This document shows positions 35,382 to 53,353 of a DNA stretch of 64,000 nucleotides, piece after piece. The DNA comes from Natrarchaeobius halalkaliphilus. GTDB lineage: Archaea; Halobacteriota; Halobacteria; Halobacteriales; Natrialbaceae. The notes under the pieces were generated by a model that did no database searches, had not been told where the DNA came from, and was given only the letters and a program-made list of their open reading frames with translations. The stretch covers positions 558,001 to 622,000 of the forward strand of contig NZ_REFY01000003.1 of assembly GCF_003841485.1 (NCBI RefSeq), given 5' to 3'. Position 1 is the stretch's first letter. Each line of letters begins with the position of its first letter. A program made the translations under genes and the position numbers.

Positions 35382-37352
35382 ATGGACGATCGGAACGGAT
35401 GGGGCCGCGACCGACCGGTTCCCGCCGGATCGCCCCATCAGCCCCCCGAATCGTTCGTCGAACAGGCGAACGTGACGGACGAGGCGATCGACGAGAAGTT
35501 CGAAGAGAACTGGCCCGAGTGCTGGGAGCGAGCCGCCGGATCGCTCTCGTGGGACGAACCGTTCGACACCGTCCTCGAGGACGGGGACGCACCCCTGTAT
35601 CGGTGGTTCGCGGGCGGGAAGCTCAACGCTTCGTTCAACTGCGTCGACCGGCATCTCGAGGCCGACCGAAAGACCCACGCCGCGATCCGCTGGGAGGGAA
35701 AACACGGCGAGCGCGAGACGTACACCTACCGGGACCTGTACGTGGCGGTCAACGAGTTGGCGGCTGCGCTCCGTGAACTCGACGTCGAAGAGGACGACGT
35801 CGTGACGATCTACCTGCCGATGATCCCGGAGTTGCCGATCGCGATGCTCGCCTGCGCTCGCATCGGCGCGCCACACAACGTCGTCTTCGCCGGACTCTCG
35901 GCCGATGCGCTCGCGGCGCGGATGGACGCCGCTGACAGCGAATTTCTCATCACCTGCGACGGCTACTACCGTCGCGGAGACGCGTTCAATCAGAAAGGAA
36001 AGGCCGACAACGCCCGGCTCTCGCTCGAGGCCGACGTTCGAACCGTCGTCGTCGATCACCTCGGTGCGGACCTTCCCCACGTTCTGGGGGACGACGAGTA
36101 CGATTATCACGATCTCCGCGAGGAGTTTGCCGGCCGGACCGTCGATCCCGTCCCGCGAGATGCCGAGGACATGCTGTTTCTGATGTACACCTCGGGAACG
36201 ACGGGAGAGCCCAAGGGAGTCGTTCACACGACCGGAGGCTACCTCGCACACGTCGCCTGGACGAGTCACGCGGTCCTCGACGTCAAGCCCGAGGACACCT
36301 ACTGGTGTGCGGCCGACATCGGCTGGATCACGGGCCACTCCTACATCGTCTACGGCCCGCTCGCGCTGGGGACGACGACCGTCATGTACGAGGGCACTCC
36401 CGACTACCCGGACCGCGACCGCCTCTGGGAGATCGTCGACCGCAACGCGGTGGACGTCTTCTATACGGCACCGACGGCGATCCGCGCGTTCATGAAGTGG
36501 GGCGAACAGTACCCGGCAAGCCACGACCTCTCGAGTCTCCGATTGCTCGGCACCGTCGGCGAGCCGATCAGCCCGCGGCCCTGGAACTGGTACCGCGAAC
36601 GCGTCGGCGGCGGCTGTCCGGTCGTCGACACCTGGTGGCAGACCGAAACCGGCGCGATGATGCTCTCGACGCTTCCCGGTATCGACGAGATGAAACCGGG
36701 TGCTGCGGGGCCGGCGCTTCCGGGAATCGAGGCTCGCGTCGTCGACGAGACCGGAGCCGACGTCGCAGCCGGCGAGGCGGGCTATCTCACCATCACTCGC
36801 CCGTGGCCCGGAATGGCTCGAACGCTGTACGACGGCGACGATCGCTACCGCGCGGAGTACTGGGAACCGTTCTCCGATCCCGAAACCGGCGATTGGCGAT
36901 ACTTCAGCGGCGACACCGCCTCGATCGACGAGGACGGCTACGTCACCGTTCTCGGCCGCGTCGACGACGTGATCACCGTCTCCGGCCGGCGACTGAGTAC
37001 GATGGAGATCGAGAGCGCGATCACCGACGTCGCCGGCGTCGCTGAGTCCGCCGTCGTCGGCCGCTCGAGCGACCGTGAAGGAACCGAGATCTACGCCTAC
37101 GTGAGCACCGAAGGTGGGTTCGAACCCACCGACGACATCCGCGACGCGATCGTCGACAGCGTCGGCGGCGCGATCGGACCGGTCGCGACGCCCCACGAGA
37201 TCGTGTTCACGCCCGAACTCCCGAAGACGCGCTCCGGGAAGATCATGCGCCGCCTGCTCGAGGACATCGTAAACGGCGAGGAACTCGAGGACACGAGTGC
37301 GCTTCGAAACCCCGAGATCGTCGGAGAGATCCAGACCGGACGCGAGGAGTGA
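35382..37352 (+). CDS. acs: Acetyl-CoA synthetase (acetate--CoA ligase), paralog 1
   Basis: This AMP-forming enzyme activates acetate to acetyl-CoA. The 656-residue protein has MYTSGTTGEPKGVVHTTGG (ATP-binding A3), the DTWWQTETG acetyl-AMP segment, RVDDVITVSG at the hinge and the C-terminal KTRSGKIMRRLLEDI with the regulatory lysine. It is closely similar to the second copy 4.7 kb downstream, with stretches of near identity. In this copy the usual VSGHRLGT motif reads VSGRRLST, a change that could affect substrate choice. The short N-terminal extension before PPESFVEQANV differs between the two copies. Confidence 0.92.
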   Translation: MDDRNGWGRDRPVPAGSPHQPPESFVEQANVTDEAIDEKFEENWPECWERAAGSLSWDEPFDTVLEDGDAPLYRWFAGGKLNASFNCVDRHLEADRKTHAAIRWEGKHGERETYTYRDLYVAVNELAAALRELDVEEDDVVTIYLPMIPELPIAMLACARIGAPHNVVFAGLSADALAARMDAADSEFLITCDGYYRRGDAFNQKGKADNARLSLEADVRTVVVDHLGADLPHVLGDDEYDYHDLREEFAGRTVDPVPRDAEDMLFLMYTSGTTGEPKGVVHTTGGYLAHVAWTSHAVLDVKPEDTYWCAADIGWITGHSYIVYGPLALGTTTVMYEGTPDYPDRDRLWEIVDRNAVDVFYTAPTAIRAFMKWGEQYPASHDLSSLRLLGTVGEPISPRPWNWYRERVGGGCPVVDTWWQTETGAMMLSTLPGIDEMKPGAAGPALPGIEARVVDETGADVAAGEAGYLTITRPWPGMARTLYDGDDRYRAEYWEPFSDPETGDWRYFSGDTASIDEDGYVTVLGRVDDVITVSGRRLSTMEIESAITDVAGVAESAVVGRSSDREGTEIYAYVSTEGGFEPTDDIRDAIVDSVGGAIGPVATPHEIVFTPELPKTRSGKIMRRLLEDIVNGEELEDTSALRNPEIVGEIQTGREE

Positions 37353-37526: not shown

Positions 37527-39770
37527 ATGAGTCTCGAGACGGCCGACGAGTCGACGATCTCGAGGCGGCAGTACGAAGTGCTGGTCGGCGTTGCCGAAAC
37601 GTATCGAGAGGCACTCGTGATCCGTCTCTGTGGCCAGGTCGGGCTTCGCCCGGCGGAACTCGTTCGGCTGTCGGTCGACGACGTCGAGCAGGTTCGAATC
37701 GATCCGCCCCGGTATCTCGTTCGGGTTCCCGACGGGGACGACCGTCACGAAGACGGCCGCCACGGCGTTCGAACCGCCTACCTCCCCGTCGACGTCGAAC
37801 GCGAACTCCGCCGATACGCGCGAAGCGAGGGGCTGTCGGCGGACGACCGAATATTCACCGTGACGCCCAGACGACTCCAGATGCTCGTCTCCGACGTCGG
37901 AGACCGCGCGAGCGAGGCGTTCGACGACCCCGCTCTGGCCGAGGTCTCGACGGCGGATCTTCGCCGGTACTTCGCGCATCGCGCACTCGTCGACCACGAC
38001 GTGAATCCTCGCGCGGTCAAAGCCGCCGGCGGCTGGCAGAGCTTCGAAGCCCTCGAGTTCTTCTTTCGCGAGCCGACGGACGACGAACTCGTCGACGCCT
38101 TCGACGCCGTCGAACGCCCGTCGAGACCGGGCTGGGGCCACGACGGTCGACAGCCCGACGAGCCGGTGAGCGACGACAGCGTCGTTCGCCTCTTGCTCGC
38201 CGCGAGCGACCGGTACGCGCTCGTTCGACTGGACGCGGACGGCTACGTCGATCGGTGGAACCGCAGCGCCGCCGCGCTGTTTGGCTATCGGGCCGGCGAG
38301 ATCGTCGGAACTCACGCCTCGACCTTTTATACCGACGACGCTATCGAAGACGGTGCTCCCGAGCGAACGCTCGCTGTGGCCCTCGAGTCGGGGGGACACG
38401 AGGTCGAGGGCTGGCGCGTTCACCAGGACGGATCGCGGTTTCGCGTGACTGAGGTCGTCTCGGCGCTCCGTGACGACCGGGGCCGCCACCGTGGCTTCGC
38501 CGTCTTCGTTCGCGACGTTTCCGCCCATCACGACGCACTCGAGTCGGCCCGCGCTCGTGGGGACGAACTCGAGCGGCGACGCGCCGTCGTCGGACGACAC
38601 CGCGCCGTGACTCGCTCGCTGCTCGCGTCGACCGATCACGCCGAGATCGAAACGAACGCCTGCGCGTCGCTCGTCGACGGCTCCGCCTACGAGTTCGCGT
38701 GGATCGACCGGGCGACGCTCTCCGATGGTCGCCGGGAGTGGCGAACCGCGAGCGGTCTCGAACCGTCCGCCATCGACCGGATCGTCCCGGACGGCTGGGG
38801 AAGAAACGCGTTCGAAGACGGCCCGAGCGACCGCGCGGACGGCTCCGGCGAGGCCACCGAATCGGCGGTGTCGGTCGCGCGGGACGTCACGGCGGGCGTC
38901 GAGGAACGCCGCTTCGAAGGAGCGCTCGCGTGCGTTCCCGTCGAGTACGGCGAAACCCGGTACGGAACGCTCTCTGTCGGAACCGCCCGAGCGGCCGCGT
39001 TCGACGAGGAGGAACGGCGAGGGCTCGAGACGACGGGCCGCGAGATCGGAGCCGCGATCAGCGCGGCCCGTCGACGAACGCTCCTCTCGTCGGACCGGGT
39101 GGTCGAACTCGAGATCCGCTGTCGGGACACGGGATCGTTCTTCGTCGACGCCTCGCGGACGCTCTCGTGTCGCTTCGAACTCGACTCGCTCGTCCCCGTC
39201 TCGGAGTCGACGCAGCTCTACTACCTCCGCCTCGAGGGTGCGTCCCCTGCCGAGGTCTTCGAACTCGCAGACGTCGAAGAGGAGATCGAAGACTGTCGGG
39301 TGATCGAAACCGACGAACGAGGGTCGCGTCTCGAGGTCGTCGTCGACGGATCATCCCCGGCGCTAACGCTGACCGAGTACGGTGCGACCGTCCGCGAGGC
39401 GAACTTCGAGGATGGGCGAGCGACGATCACGGCCGACTGCAGCGCCGACGCGGACCTCAGGACGATCGTCGACGGACTGCGCGCCGCCTTTCCGGAAACC
39501 GATCTGATCGGCAAGCGAGAGACCGACCGGTCCGTCCGGACGACAGCCGAGTTCAGGGCGGGACTCGAGGACCGACTGACGGATCGTCAGGAGGCGACGC
39601 TCCGTGCGGCGTACGTCGGCGGCTACTACGACTGGCCGCGCGAGAGCACTGCCGAAGAAGTGGCAGACGCCATGGGAATTACCTCTCCGACGCTGCACAA
39701 CCACCTCCGAAAAGCCCAGCACGAGCTGTTGCGGACGTTTTTCGAGGGGGATCGGACCGATCACGACTGA
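37527..39770 (+). CDS. Bat-type (HTH-10) regulator with N-terminal tyrosine-recombinase-like domain, PAS and GAF
   Basis: The 747-residue protein has four parts. Residues about 12-185 resemble the catalytic domain of tyrosine recombinases: GLRPAELVRLSVDDV contains Arg41, and STADLRRYFAHRALVDHDVNPRAVKAAGGW matches the 'H-x-L-R-H-T-F-A' region. The first catalytic His is Ala143 and the Tyr position is Phe (178-180), so it should not cut DNA. Then come a PAS domain (about 220-330), a GAF-like domain (about 360-515), a Bat domain (about 525-680) and the HTH-10 motif (LTDRQEATLRAAYVGGYYDW, SPTLHNHLRKAQHELL). It lies between two acs genes, so it is a good candidate for acetate control. Confidence 0.85.
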   Translation: MSLETADESTISRRQYEVLVGVAETYREALVIRLCGQVGLRPAELVRLSVDDVEQVRIDPPRYLVRVPDGDDRHEDGRHGVRTAYLPVDVERELRRYARSEGLSADDRIFTVTPRRLQMLVSDVGDRASEAFDDPALAEVSTADLRRYFAHRALVDHDVNPRAVKAAGGWQSFEALEFFFREPTDDELVDAFDAVERPSRPGWGHDGRQPDEPVSDDSVVRLLLAASDRYALVRLDADGYVDRWNRSAAALFGYRAGEIVGTHASTFYTDDAIEDGAPERTLAVALESGGHEVEGWRVHQDGSRFRVTEVVSALRDDRGRHRGFAVFVRDVSAHHDALESARARGDELERRRAVVGRHRAVTRSLLASTDHAEIETNACASLVDGSAYEFAWIDRATLSDGRREWRTASGLEPSAIDRIVPDGWGRNAFEDGPSDRADGSGEATESAVSVARDVTAGVEERRFEGALACVPVEYGETRYGTLSVGTARAAAFDEEERRGLETTGREIGAAISAARRRTLLSSDRVVELEIRCRDTGSFFVDASRTLSCRFELDSLVPVSESTQLYYLRLEGASPAEVFELADVEEEIEDCRVIETDERGSRLEVVVDGSSPALTLTEYGATVREANFEDGRATITADCSADADLRTIVDGLRAAFPETDLIGKRETDRSVRTTAEFRAGLEDRLTDRQEATLRAAYVGGYYDWPRESTAEEVADAMGITSPTLHNHLRKAQHELLRTFFEGDRTDHD

Positions 39771-40077: not shown

Positions 40078-42102
<2,025 letters not shown>

Positions 42103-42227: not shown

Positions 42228-42680
42228 TCACTCCGTTTCGACCGGCGTTTTGACGATCGTGACCGGACGATCGGACATGTTCGCCACCCGTTCCGCGACG
42301 CTGCCGAGGAGGCGGCGATACTCGCCCGATCGGTTCTTCGAGCCGACGACGGTGAGTCCGATGTCCTCTCTGGACACGTACTCGAGGATGGCCCCGTGTG
42401 GAACGCCGTGTTCGATGCTCGTTTTCACGTCGATCCCTTCGTCGGCAGCGGTCTCGCTGATCTCTTCGACGGCGTCGCGACCGGCCTGCTCGAGGGCACT
42501 CTCGAGTCCTTCTAGCTCGTGGACGTACTCGTCGCCCGGATACGAGCCGTAGGTTTCGGTATCGACGACGTATAGGACGTGGAGTTCGGCGTCGTATCGC
42601 GAAGCCGCGTCGATCGCGTGATCGATGGCTCGGTCGACGCCCGTGCCGATATCCGTCGGCAAGAGGAGGCGATCGTACAT
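42228..42680 (-). CDS. Universal stress protein (UspA family)
   Basis: The 150-residue protein begins MYDRLLLPTDIGTGVDRAIDHAIDAA and carries the nucleotide-binding pattern VVGSKNRSGEYRRLLGSVAERV, a good match to the G-2x-G-9x-G[S] motif of ATP-binding Usp proteins, more complete than in the Usp gene at 34738. It is convergent with acs paralog 2. The ATG at 42680 is set by the family N-terminus; 26 upstream codons do not match it. Confidence 0.87.
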   Translation of the reverse strand: MYDRLLLPTDIGTGVDRAIDHAIDAASRYDAELHVLYVVDTETYGSYPGDEYVHELEGLESALEQAGRDAVEEISETAADEGIDVKTSIEHGVPHGAILEYVSREDIGLTVVGSKNRSGEYRRLLGSVAERVANMSDRPVTIVKTPVETE

Positions 42681-42836: not shown

Positions 42837-44981
42837 TCAGGAATCGAACTCCGGTCGAAGCTCCTCGGACCAGTAGACGTCACCGTCGTAGATGACGGAT
42901 GCTTCCGTCTCGTCGAGCAACGCTGCGAGCTCCGACCGCGAGAGGGTGAAGTTCGATTCGGTCCCGCAGAGATACGCGTATTCGTTTCCGGCCGTGTGCG
43001 GGAAGTAGTACGACCCCGTCGCCCGGGTCGAATAGCAGTCGAACGTGACGAGAAACTGCTCATCGGCATCGTCGCCGGTCGGGCCGTCCGCTGTCCGTCC
43101 GTCGAGTGGCTCGACGATCACCGTCGTCGGCAGCCGGTGTTCGCCCTGCGTGAGCGAGTGAGTGCCGTCACCGACGACGGCGTAATCTTTCCCCATCATG
43201 ATTCGACGGCGCGCGAGGCGCATCGCGCGTTCGATGCTGAACCCGTGAACGAGGAGTTTGGCGAACGCCGAACCGACTTTGACGGCGTGATCGTTCAACA
43301 CCTTGGTGAACGTCACAGCACCGGCAACGCTTCCTTTCTCGATCAGCGCCGTTCCTTCGTAGAACGAACCGCAGGCGTTGAGGAAAAACGTCTGGACGTT
43401 CGATCGATCGAGGCTCGAGGTCGAGAGATAGCCGTCGGCACAGCGGAGTCCGTCGGTTTCACAGTGACCGATGTAGTGGACGAAGTCGTGGTCGTCCTCG
43501 AAGAGTCTGGCGAGTTCCACAACGCTCAACGAGTCTTCGACGGTGACCTGGATCGGGAGCTCTTCGGAACGACGACGATAAATCTCGGCAACGCTGTCGT
43601 GCTCGCCGCTCATTTCGGGATCGTTCAGGATGACGCGAATCGACGTCGTATCGCTCGCTCGGTCGACGTAATCGAGCCGGTTGTAGTAGGCTTCGGGTGC
43701 GGATTTGAAAACGTCGATCGGCACGCCGTCGGCAAGCCAGCCGTGTATTCGTCCGTTTTTGAGTTCGGGCTTGACGATATCGACCGATGCGACCCGGCCG
43801 ACGCTGGCTCGTCCGCCGACGGTCGCGGAACTCCGGTCCCCGCCACGGTAGAAATCCGCAAGCGAGCGCTCGACGAGTTCCTGTCCGTCGAGTTCGGACG
43901 TCCGGGGGGGATAGATCATACTCAGACGATCGAGCAAGAACGGAACCATCTCGACGTGGTCGTAGCTGGGCGTGACGTACGTGGAGAGGTGCCAGTCGGG
44001 AAGCCGGTGTTCGATCGCAGCGTACGGGACGTCGAGATACGTCTCGAGGCGACGTTCCGAAGACAGTTCGTACAACCGCGTTGGGTCCAAACCGAGCGCA
44101 GAGAGGAGGTTCGTCGAGGCGAGGTTCGTTCCGCACGGACCCGCGTTCCGAACCAGACAGTCCATAAAAAACGTTTTTCGGAGTACGCGCTCGACGTCGC
44201 ACTCGAGGGTCGGCATCGGAGAGAGCCGTTCGTCGACGTCTATATCCGGGATTCGAATCCGGGGGTGCTCCGGATCGCGACGGACCCCCTCGGCCTCGAG
44301 CGTCCGGATCGTCGCCTGCAGATAGTACGCGAGGGGCGCGACGGTGAACATCGTCTCGTACTCCGACGGGACGAGCAGTTCGATGCCGGTATCGGGCGTT
44401 TCGTTTCGAATCTCCGGAGGGATCTCGAGGGAATCACCGGCTTCGAGAAACGGTGGGTGACCGCGGAGCGTCGGGTACGTCCTGTCGGGCTTCGTGGTTT
44501 TGTGTGACGAGGAGAGGTGCGTTATCGCCGTGGCGACCTCCTCGGGCGAGTCGGGAACGGTTATCGTTCCGCTCGGACGTTCGTGTCGGCTTCGAAAGCC
44601 GGCGACGACCGTCGTCCGCTCCGAGAAGGTAACGACGAGCGACTCGAATCCGTCCGATCGGTTGATCGTCGCTGGGCCGCTGATCCGAAGATAGGTTTTG
44701 ATGTCGGTATCGATATCGATCACGAACTCACCCGACGGAAGCGAAAGCGAGCCACGACGCGGGTCGAGTTCGTACTGGTCGTTCGAATCCAGCGAGAACG
44801 CATAGACGACCGCGTGGGGGAATCGAAGCTCCCGTGCGGTGACCGCGACCGTTTCGTCGACCGGGCGTGGAACGTCGGAACTCGTCTCCTCGACACCGAT
44901 GTCGTCGCCGTGGACGATCAACTCGGTGTTATCCGCGTCCGTGACGCGGAGTGCATGGGCCCCAACCTCCCACTCTATCAT
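42837..44981 (-). CDS. CHAT-domain (caspase-like) protein
   Basis: The 714-residue protein has a C-terminal CHAT-type protease domain: FVHYIGHCETDGL contains the putative catalytic His506, and VQTFFLNACGSFYEG the putative catalytic Cys537, with GSVAGAVTFTKVLNDH and MGKDYAVVGDGTHSL following as in CHAT proteins. The N-terminal 480 residues are not recognised; they have no TPR repeats and include a mainly beta-type start (about 1-200). No signal peptide or membrane helix is visible, so it is cytoplasmic. CHAT proteins are often linked to programmed cleavage in defence or stress. It is divergent from psmA with a 300-base gap. Confidence 0.75.
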   Translation of the reverse strand: MIEWEVGAHALRVTDADNTELIVHGDDIGVEETSSDVPRPVDETVAVTARELRFPHAVVYAFSLDSNDQYELDPRRGSLSLPSGEFVIDIDTDIKTYLRISGPATINRSDGFESLVVTFSERTTVVAGFRSRHERPSGTITVPDSPEEVATAITHLSSSHKTTKPDRTYPTLRGHPPFLEAGDSLEIPPEIRNETPDTGIELLVPSEYETMFTVAPLAYYLQATIRTLEAEGVRRDPEHPRIRIPDIDVDERLSPMPTLECDVERVLRKTFFMDCLVRNAGPCGTNLASTNLLSALGLDPTRLYELSSERRLETYLDVPYAAIEHRLPDWHLSTYVTPSYDHVEMVPFLLDRLSMIYPPRTSELDGQELVERSLADFYRGGDRSSATVGGRASVGRVASVDIVKPELKNGRIHGWLADGVPIDVFKSAPEAYYNRLDYVDRASDTTSIRVILNDPEMSGEHDSVAEIYRRRSEELPIQVTVEDSLSVVELARLFEDDHDFVHYIGHCETDGLRCADGYLSTSSLDRSNVQTFFLNACGSFYEGTALIEKGSVAGAVTFTKVLNDHAVKVGSAFAKLLVHGFSIERAMRLARRRIMMGKDYAVVGDGTHSLTQGEHRLPTTVIVEPLDGRTADGPTGDDADEQFLVTFDCYSTRATGSYYFPHTAGNEYAYLCGTESNFTLSRSELAALLDETEASVIYDGDVYWSEELRPEFDS

Positions 44982-45281
44982 TCGGTACGCTGAATGTGTC
45001 CCCGCGAAGTTAGTTGTATCGGAATGTCACCTTTGAGTCGTGCGGTTTGTTTCGGCCTGTGAAACTCCGCACCCCTCGTCGGCCTTGAGTCTTTGTCTGG
45101 CGGAGAGTGCGGGTCGGGTAAGTAAACTATTTAGGACGCCGTGGGCAAGTCACGGAAGAGAGAAACGTCGTGTTCTGGAACGAAGAGCGAGTCGCCGTCG
45201 GACGCAATGGATCTACTGACGCGGGACTCGAGGAGCCGTTCTCGAATGCGACAGACCTCGATTACGATTTAGCGTGATACT
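44982..45281. other. Divergent regulatory region between the CHAT gene and psmA, with a possible leader ORF
   Basis: The region holds a TATA-like AACTATTTAGG (45125-45134) for psmA, which would leave a leader of about 125 nt. In that leader GTG at 45170 opens a 35-codon frame ending at 45277, five bases before the psmA ATG. It is acidic (FWNEERVAVGRNG...) and may be a leader peptide or chance. GTGCGG and CCGCAC near 45040 and 45067 can form a six-pair stem. Confidence 0.35.
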
Positions 45282-46043
45282 ATGCAGGGACAAGCTCAAC
45301 AGCAGGCATACGACCGAGGCATCACGATCTTCTCGCCAGACGGCCGACTCTACCAGGTCGAGTACGCACGCGAGGCGGTCAAACGCGGAACGGCGAGCAT
45401 CGGCGTCCGAACGTCGGACGGCGTCGTTCTCGCCGTCGATAAACGCGTTCCGTCACCGCTGCTCGAGGACTCGAGCGTCGAGAAGATTCACAAAGCAGAC
45501 GACCACATCGGGATCGCCAGCGCGGGCCACGTCGCGGACGCGCGCCAGCTGATCGACTTCGCACGCCGACAGACGCAGGTCAATCAGCTTCGCTACGGCG
45601 AACCGATCGGCGTCGAGACGTTGACCAAAGAGGTTACCGATCACATCCAACAGTACACCCAGGTCGGCGGTGCCCGTCCGTTCGGCGTCGCACTGATCGT
45701 CGGCGGCATCGACAACGGCGAGCCGCGCCTGTTCGAGACGGACCCCTCGGGGACGCCCTACGAGTGGAAGGCGCTTGCCGTCGGTGCCGACCGCGGTGAA
45801 CTCCAGGAGTTCTTGGAGGAGAACTACGACGGCGACGCCGACCTCGAGGGCGGAATCGCGCTGGCGCTCGACGCGCTCGCATCCGTCAACGATGGATCGT
45901 TGCTCCCGAGCGAAGTCGGGCTCGCGACTGTCGACGTCGAAAGTGAGTCCTTCGAGCAGTTCGAGCAGGACCGTATCGGTGACCATCTCGAGGAAAACGG
46001 CCTCCTCGACGACGGTGAAGAAGAGGACGAAGGCGACGAATAA
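45282..46043 (+). CDS. psmA: Proteasome subunit alpha
   Basis: PsmA forms the outer rings of the 20S proteasome and gates substrate entry. The 253-residue protein starts with the gate segment YDRGITIFSPDGRLYQVEYAREAVKRG, the alpha-subunit signature, followed by GTASIGVRTSDGVVLAVDKR. The acidic tail (GEEEDEGDE) is a haloarchaeal adaptation. Its usual partners here are SBDS downstream (107-base gap) and, divergently, the CHAT protein. The beta subunit is not in the window. Confidence 0.96.
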   Translation: MQGQAQQQAYDRGITIFSPDGRLYQVEYAREAVKRGTASIGVRTSDGVVLAVDKRVPSPLLEDSSVEKIHKADDHIGIASAGHVADARQLIDFARRQTQVNQLRYGEPIGVETLTKEVTDHIQQYTQVGGARPFGVALIVGGIDNGEPRLFETDPSGTPYEWKALAVGADRGELQEFLEENYDGDADLEGGIALALDALASVNDGSLLPSEVGLATVDVESESFEQFEQDRIGDHLEENGLLDDGEEEDEGDE

Positions 46044-52720: not shown

Positions 52721-53353
52721 TCACTCGAGTCGGATCCAATCGGTCGGCGCTTCTCGGTCACGGAGATGCCACCGTTGTTCGTGGACGCCGTCGTCTGTCC
52801 GGAGTTCGACGACCGCATCGAACATCGGTTCGAAAAGGGAGACGGCGTCGTGGTCGCGGGAGACCGGTAAATGGTAATGCCCCATTCCACGCGCCCGTTC
52901 GGTCCGGGACATCACGACGTGAAGCAATCGGAACACGGCTTCGGTCTCACACTCCTGTAAGAGCGAGACGAGCGAGTCGACGCAGACCCGGAGTTCGGAC
53001 GGCTCGAGTCCGTCCGCAGCAGCCTCGAACTCGTCGATAGCATCGATAACCTCGAGACCGAGATTGCCGAGTGCGGTGCCGTCGGGATTCGATTCCGCGG
53101 TGGCGTACTCGATGGTGGTCGTCTCGGTTGGCCGTGTCAGACCGTGACGATGCGTGGTCGAATCCGCGGTGACGAGCAGCCGGTACCGCGGCTCCTGGCT
53201 GGACAGAGCGCTGAGACGACGACAGACTAGCTCGTGGCCCTTGCTCGTCCGACTCCCGACGAGTAACAGGTTACACCCCTGGCGCTTGAGCGAGTCGAGC
53301 GTCTGTGCAAATCCTGATCGATCTCCCCCCATGCACCCCGACGTACTTTCCAT
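52721..53353 (-). CDS. Haloarchaeal P-loop-like (RecA/KaiC-related) protein with degenerate Walker A
   Basis: The 210-residue protein shows a RecA-like pattern: CNLLLVGSRTSKGHELVCRRL in the place of the Walker A loop, GLEPSELRVCVDSLVSLLQE in the place of the Walker B strand, and FRLLHVVMSRTERARGMGHYHLPV after it. The loop lacks the G-K-[S/T] needed to bind phosphates, so ATPase activity is unlikely. Such reduced KaiC-like proteins are common in haloarchaea and are of unknown function. A TATA element at 53380-53390 (minus strand ATATTTATC) gives a leaderless start at 53353. Confidence 0.65.
   Translation of the reverse strand: MESTSGCMGGDRSGFAQTLDSLKRQGCNLLLVGSRTSKGHELVCRRLSALSSQEPRYRLLVTADSTTHRHGLTRPTETTTIEYATAESNPDGTALGNLGLEVIDAIDEFEAAADGLEPSELRVCVDSLVSLLQECETEAVFRLLHVVMSRTERARGMGHYHLPVSRDHDAVSLFEPMFDAVVELRTDDGVHEQRWHLRDREAPTDWIRLE

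Follow-up and report, generated by a model that had tools for sequence, protein, structure and literature searches.

In the genome of Natrarchaeobius halalkaliphilus, a gene with caspase-like motifs lies head to head with psmA, the gene for the proteasome alpha subunit, which raises the question of whether its product belongs to stress proteolysis, to defence or to another process. In the window (the whole stretch of 64,000 nucleotides analysed here), the open reading frame occupies 42837-44981 on the minus strand, starts with ATG and encodes 714 residues; His506 lies inside HYIGHCETDG (codon 43464-43466) and Cys537 inside FFLNACGSF (codon 43371-43373). psmA starts at 45282 on the plus strand (253 residues), leaving 300 bp between the two genes. 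All this agrees with what a sequence-only reading of the window had observed. Family members were found in 36 of 41 genomes, with full-length open orthologs in most relatives, and His506 and Cys537 were invariant in all 53 aligned orthologs (relatives 42-76% identical), as were the adjoining GH and NAC motifs, down to 42% identity. Because the orthologs are open over their full length in most relatives and His and Cys do not vary among the 53 sequences, neither the reading frame nor its motifs can be put down to chance. The gene and the parts of its product are as follows:

42837-44981, minus strand: CHAT-domain protein gene, 714 residues, ortholog of a glyA-tbsP-linked haloarchaeal family
44556-44981, minus strand: N-terminal beta-sandwich, residues 1-142, in the AlphaFold models; weakly similar to one half of a mutarotase/YidC-type supersandwich (Z 8.4, 121-123 residues aligned)
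44004-44546, minus strand: alpha/beta module, residues 146-326, candidate sensor or regulatory part (AlphaFold, PDB comparison)
43662-43994, minus strand: accessory half of the caspase-like fold, residues 330-440, including a poorly ordered linker at 373-399 (gingipain and separase alignment)
43149-43655, minus strand: predicted CHAT peptidase domain, residues 443-611 (8tl0; PF12770 in relatives)
43464-43466, minus strand: codon of His506, predicted catalytic His, invariant in 53 orthologs, just past strand 498-504
43371-43373, minus strand: codon of Cys537, predicted catalytic Cys, invariant in 53 orthologs, just past strand 529-535
42840-43127, minus strand: C-terminal beta domain, residues 619-714 (AlphaFold model)

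The AlphaFold model of the window protein, built on the 53-sequence ortholog alignment, reached a pLDDT of 83 and a pTM of 0.84. Foldseek placed the SAVED-CHAT filament 8tl0 on top (E 2e-8), with gingipain, separase and caspases next, and the best PDB matches after 8tl0 were gingipain, separase and TPR-CHAT/Csx29. When residues 443-611 were superimposed on 8tl0 using VIA-align, 168 residues were aligned with Z 19.1, an rmsd of 2.3 A and 17% identity. In the model, His506 comes just past strand 498-504 and Cys537 just past strand 529-535, which is the clan-CD order; the window protein thus has both a caspase-like alpha/beta catalytic fold and a conserved His-Cys pair placed behind successive central strands. 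Profile searches for CHAT gave a mixed outcome: the window protein alone had no match to PF12770, not even at E = 1, whereas 14 of the 53 orthologs matched weakly (best 3.8e-4), one paralog exceeded the cut-off (37 bits against 24) and 4 of 17 sequences in a mostly paralogous set matched below it. In addition, one ortholog touched Peptidase_C25 in Pfam (0.025), and a viral structure library yielded one match, an uncharacterised myovirus protein (E 4.5e-5). Neither NCBIfam searches with the window protein and family members nor searches of PDB sequences, run with single sequences and with profiles, yielded a useful match. Judged by sequence, the family appears to be a divergent CHAT branch outside the coverage of the PF12770 model. 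The call of a CHAT or caspase-like peptidase domain made in the sequence-only reading is upheld by the superposition on 8tl0, the invariant dyad and the PF12770 matches in relatives, and the dyad's position is that of clan-CD enzymes. On these results we place the family in clan CD as CHAT-type, with catalysis as a predicted property.

Residues 1-326 modelled alone reached a pLDDT of 91.8. The fold search with the N-terminal part gave a best Z of 8.4, to glycosidase and mutarotase beta-sandwiches over residues 1-132, a likeness that may be a mere common arrangement and supports no function; residues 146-326 had no clear match in the PDB fold comparison. The Pfam scan found neither TPR nor any other domain in residues 1-480, and the model opens with the beta-sandwich, so the reported absence of recognised sensor repeats holds. 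The idea of a sensor half of 480 residues survives in part: residues 1-326 could serve as a sensor, but residues 330-440 align with the extra fold half of gingipain and separase, so the possible sensor shrinks to about residues 1-326.

The gene neighbourhood was compared at 80 orthologous loci, all in named genomes. The one-carbon metabolism gene glyA was present in 78 of them (divergent from the CHAT gene in 76), and tbsP, which codes for a carbon-metabolism regulator and was assigned through Pfam PF19138 and PF23336, in 73, always downstream and on the same strand as the CHAT gene. psmA occurred in 40, always codirectional with the CHAT gene, and this is the usual neighbourhood in Natrialbaceae; tbsP, rpp30, a methyltransferase gene and pop5 lay in between in 39 of these 40. 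In the remaining half psmA was not nearby, while glyA and tbsP were mostly kept. A head-to-head arrangement with psmA was found at none of the 80 loci. The proposed link to psmA therefore falls away: what is conserved beside the CHAT gene is glyA and tbsP, and among relatives there is no conserved divergent pairing. The gap between the CHAT gene and tbsP has a median of 413 bp, so the two are not clearly one transcript. In a close relative, Natrialba swarupiae (L041:6353-7648), the locus shows a further rearrangement, with glyA inverted relative to the CHAT gene.

In the window genome, tbsP, rpp30, the methyltransferase gene and pop5 lie at 523.8-526.4 kb of contig C3, 74 kb from the CHAT gene, and glyA is on contig C2. 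The surroundings of the CHAT gene in the window are as follows:

42228-42680, minus strand: universal stress protein gene (Pfam Usp, 7.8e-28), downstream of the CHAT gene in the usual place of tbsP
45007-45031, minus strand: conserved element upstream of the CHAT gene (GGTGACATTCCGATACAACTAACTT), probably its promoter, kept in Natrialbaceae orthologs
45032-45123, no strand: about 90 bp unlike either gene's flank in relatives, which would hold the rearrangement junction (upstream-region comparison)
45124-45281, plus strand: conserved psmA upstream region or leader (AAACTATTTAGGACGCC...; upstream-region comparison)
45282-46043, plus strand: psmA, proteasome alpha subunit, a neighbour apparently only via the rearrangement

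From gene order, the proximity of the CHAT gene and psmA appears to be a rearrangement peculiar to the window genome, and two nested inversions would be a simple account of it. The junctions, one between the Usp and CHAT genes at about 42.7-42.8 kb and one between CHAT and psmA at about 45.03-45.12 kb, may instead be misassembled, in which case the verdict on the family would be the same. Against the shared promoter region that had been supposed, each of the two genes keeps its own conserved upstream element. Elsewhere in the window, two acetyl-CoA-synthetase-like genes on the plus strand (35382-37352, recognised only through its similar N-terminus, and 40078-42102) flank a PAS/GAF/BAT/HTH_10 regulator gene (37527-39770), and a DUF7504 gene (E 2.7e-51) stands alone at 52721-53332 on the minus strand, 8 kb from the CHAT gene.

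The CHAT family is nearly universal in the sampled haloarchaea. Among the genomes listed from the phylum sample, it occurred in 28 of Halobacteriales and in 4 of one other family, and in Haloferacaceae members were found in 143 of 170 genomes. Matches per genome ranged from 0 to 13; tandem arrays and megaplasmid copies exist, and the plasmid records found label the family mostly as 'hypothetical protein'. The four relatives from the other archaeal family (L170-L173) come from genomes two of which may be those of Methanocella paludicola and M. arvoryzae; three carry the GH and Cys motifs, and L172 is degenerate. In the tree, the glyA-tbsP-linked group stands apart from a paralog group, and one ortholog-group member (L158) has neither glyA nor tbsP as a neighbour. 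A DUF7504 gene was found within two genes of 15 paralogs, upstream and on the same strand in 14 of the 15; some of these genes are HalOD1-DUF7504 fusions, and a histidine kinase also occurs beside paralogs. The window genome has a second CHAT copy at 482.3-484.0 kb of contig C4, which adjoins a gene for a Cdc6-like AAA ATPase, with glycerol-metabolism-like genes further on. This ATPase gene (L126:10299-11462, minus strand) lies directly upstream of the copy and may encode a C-terminal HTH. His, Cys or both are lost in 7 of 21 inspected paralogs, five of the seven in tandem sets, so some members of the family are not catalytic. Four regions with such paralogs (L128:7601-14540, L130:5268-9637, L131:8191-10320 and L132:8582-10657) belong to one genome, G014, which has 13 family matches; several of its dyad-less copies are in tandem, and from their sequences they are possibly pseudo-peptidases.

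Eight of the sampled genomes look like Haloferax; in one of them, G146, long stretches of plasmid DNA match named Haloferax plasmids at 80-82% identity. In these eight, glyA and tbsP adjoin each other in divergent orientation, with about 330-390 bp between them and no CHAT ortholog, so TbsP does not need the CHAT protein. Each of the eight has exactly one family member, a DUF7504-linked paralog with His and Cys intact in every case. Around this sole member (L150-L157), the DUF7504 gene is accompanied, in most of the eight, by a Usp-like, a response-regulator-like and an IMP-dehydrogenase-like gene.

Several explanations compete for the function of the window protein. Membership in a proteasome or stress-proteolysis regulon, in which one promoter region would drive the joint expression of this gene and psmA, would fit the head-to-head genes 300 bp apart in the window genome, and the two genes do share a 6-kb neighbourhood at half of the loci, as is usual in Natrialbaceae. 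However, psmA is codirectional in all 40 of these, with four genes between in 39; the other half mostly has glyA and tbsP with no psmA nearby, and in the window the separate upstream elements are held apart by about 90 bp that resemble neither. We therefore regard this regulon as highly improbable. An antiviral or cell-death effector with an unrecognised partner, like other prokaryotic CHAT proteases, is a better candidate, though still an unlikely one. Bacterial CHAT proteases act in CRISPR-linked systems (Craspase, SAVED-CHAT), and the variable copy number, the tandem arrays and the megaplasmid copies would suit such a role. Against it, the ortholog keeps the same chromosomal position, surrounded by housekeeping genes, throughout the class, PADLOC gave no match for the window protein, and its single hit on 17 family members was weak and unrelated (JAB, 0.011). 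The neighbouring genes belong to metabolism, translation and signalling: between 37.5 and 51 kb, Pfam named a BAT-type regulator, an AMP-binding enzyme, Usp, SBDS, an HflX-type GTPase, a thiolase and DUF7547, and psmA was identified by homology. As the sequence-only reading had stated, no gasdermin- or CRISPR-type defence gene is nearby among these Pfam-named neighbours; the tie to defence or cell death that it had drawn from other CHAT proteases finds no backing in the PADLOC result or in the fixed locus.

Slightly less probable again is a protein with the caspase-like fold but no catalysis, acting as a scaffold or as a ligand-binding regulator. Such a loss of activity has precedents in the seven dyad-less paralogs and in the Methanocella-like copy that looks degenerate, but in the ortholog group both residues and the GH and NAC motifs stay invariant even in the most distant of the 53 sequences, at 42% identity. 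Three things favour a regulatory or housekeeping role: a locus that stays fixed among metabolic genes, paralogs with signalling-type partners, and the lack of defence markers. Taken together, these results make it fairly probable that the window protein is a haloarchaea-wide clan-CD peptidase of the CHAT type, normally encoded between glyA and tbsP and brought close to psmA by rearrangement, and that it is a regulated chromosomal protease of signalling or housekeeping.

For this regulated protease, the following mechanism can be proposed. The beta-sandwich and the alpha/beta module (residues 1-326) would hold the caspase-like half (residues 330-611) inactive until a bound stress or metabolic signal, or the formation of oligomers, releases it, and the released His506-Cys537 dyad would then cut one or a few target proteins. 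The computations establish the fold, the invariant dyad, the fixed locus and the loss of the dyad in some paralogs; cleavage of proteins and sensing by the N-terminal part are predictions. The target may belong to the control of carbon or one-carbon metabolism, with TbsP as the first candidate. In a published study, tbsP mutations are reported to suppress the lethal effect that deleting trmB has under gluconeogenic conditions (PMC11834397). TbsP is proposed as the target from synteny alone, and the proposal is limited by the 413-bp median gap and by the genomes that have tbsP with no CHAT ortholog.

Previous work showed that extracts of Haloferax volcanii have high LEVDase and IETDase activity that is blocked by zVAD-FMK and has no gene assigned to it; the haloarchaeal activity is described as strong, caspase-4-like, zVAD-sensitive and connected with salt stress, and those authors called for the responsible protein (PMC3615174). 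Members of the CHAT family could be the source of this activity in H. volcanii and other haloarchaea, a suggestion that we make with low confidence. It would agree with the inhibitor profile and the missing gene assignment, with the one intact member beside DUF7504 in each of the eight Haloferax-like genomes and with the near-universal occurrence of the family in Haloferacaceae. However, such activity has also been published for Pyrococcus furiosus and Sulfolobus solfataricus, and the matches to the family listed in the sampled phylum are confined to Halobacteriales plus a single further family; Pyrococcus and Sulfolobus are outside the genomes searched and outside the groups where the family was found. 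Furthermore, substrate preference cannot be read from a sequence. The family nevertheless offers a candidate gene for the haloarchaeal caspase-like activity. A literature search for CHAT and haloarchaea found no paper. A wider proposal, in which haloarchaeal caspase-like signalling proteases with their own N-terminal sensor and DUF7504 as partner supply the orphan activity and the glyA-tbsP branch cleaves TbsP or a co-regulator and so governs central carbon metabolism, is a long shot.

Among known systems, SAVED-CHAT (8tl0) has the closest solved CHAT domain to residues 443-611. Unlike SAVED-CHAT, the window protein has a different N-terminal half and no CRISPR gene among its scanned neighbours; SAVED itself had no Pfam match and no entry in the N-terminal fold lists, where a missing match excludes nothing. 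TPR-CHAT/Csx29 of Craspase (8eex, 7y85) shares the combination of a clan-CD CHAT fold with an accessory half (Z about 13), but the window protein has no TPR repeats by Pfam and no Cas7-11 among the scanned neighbours. Gingipain (C25) and separase (C50) show the same two-part caspase-like arrangement, in alignments that begin near residue 330 and end at 612-658 (Z 15-16); however, identity is 10-16%, their N-terminal parts are others, and the window protein is neither a secreted gingipain nor linked to cohesin. The fixed, metabolic setting of this family differs from the defence loci in which CHAT proteases usually occur, and the window protein adds a distinct N-terminal architecture to them.
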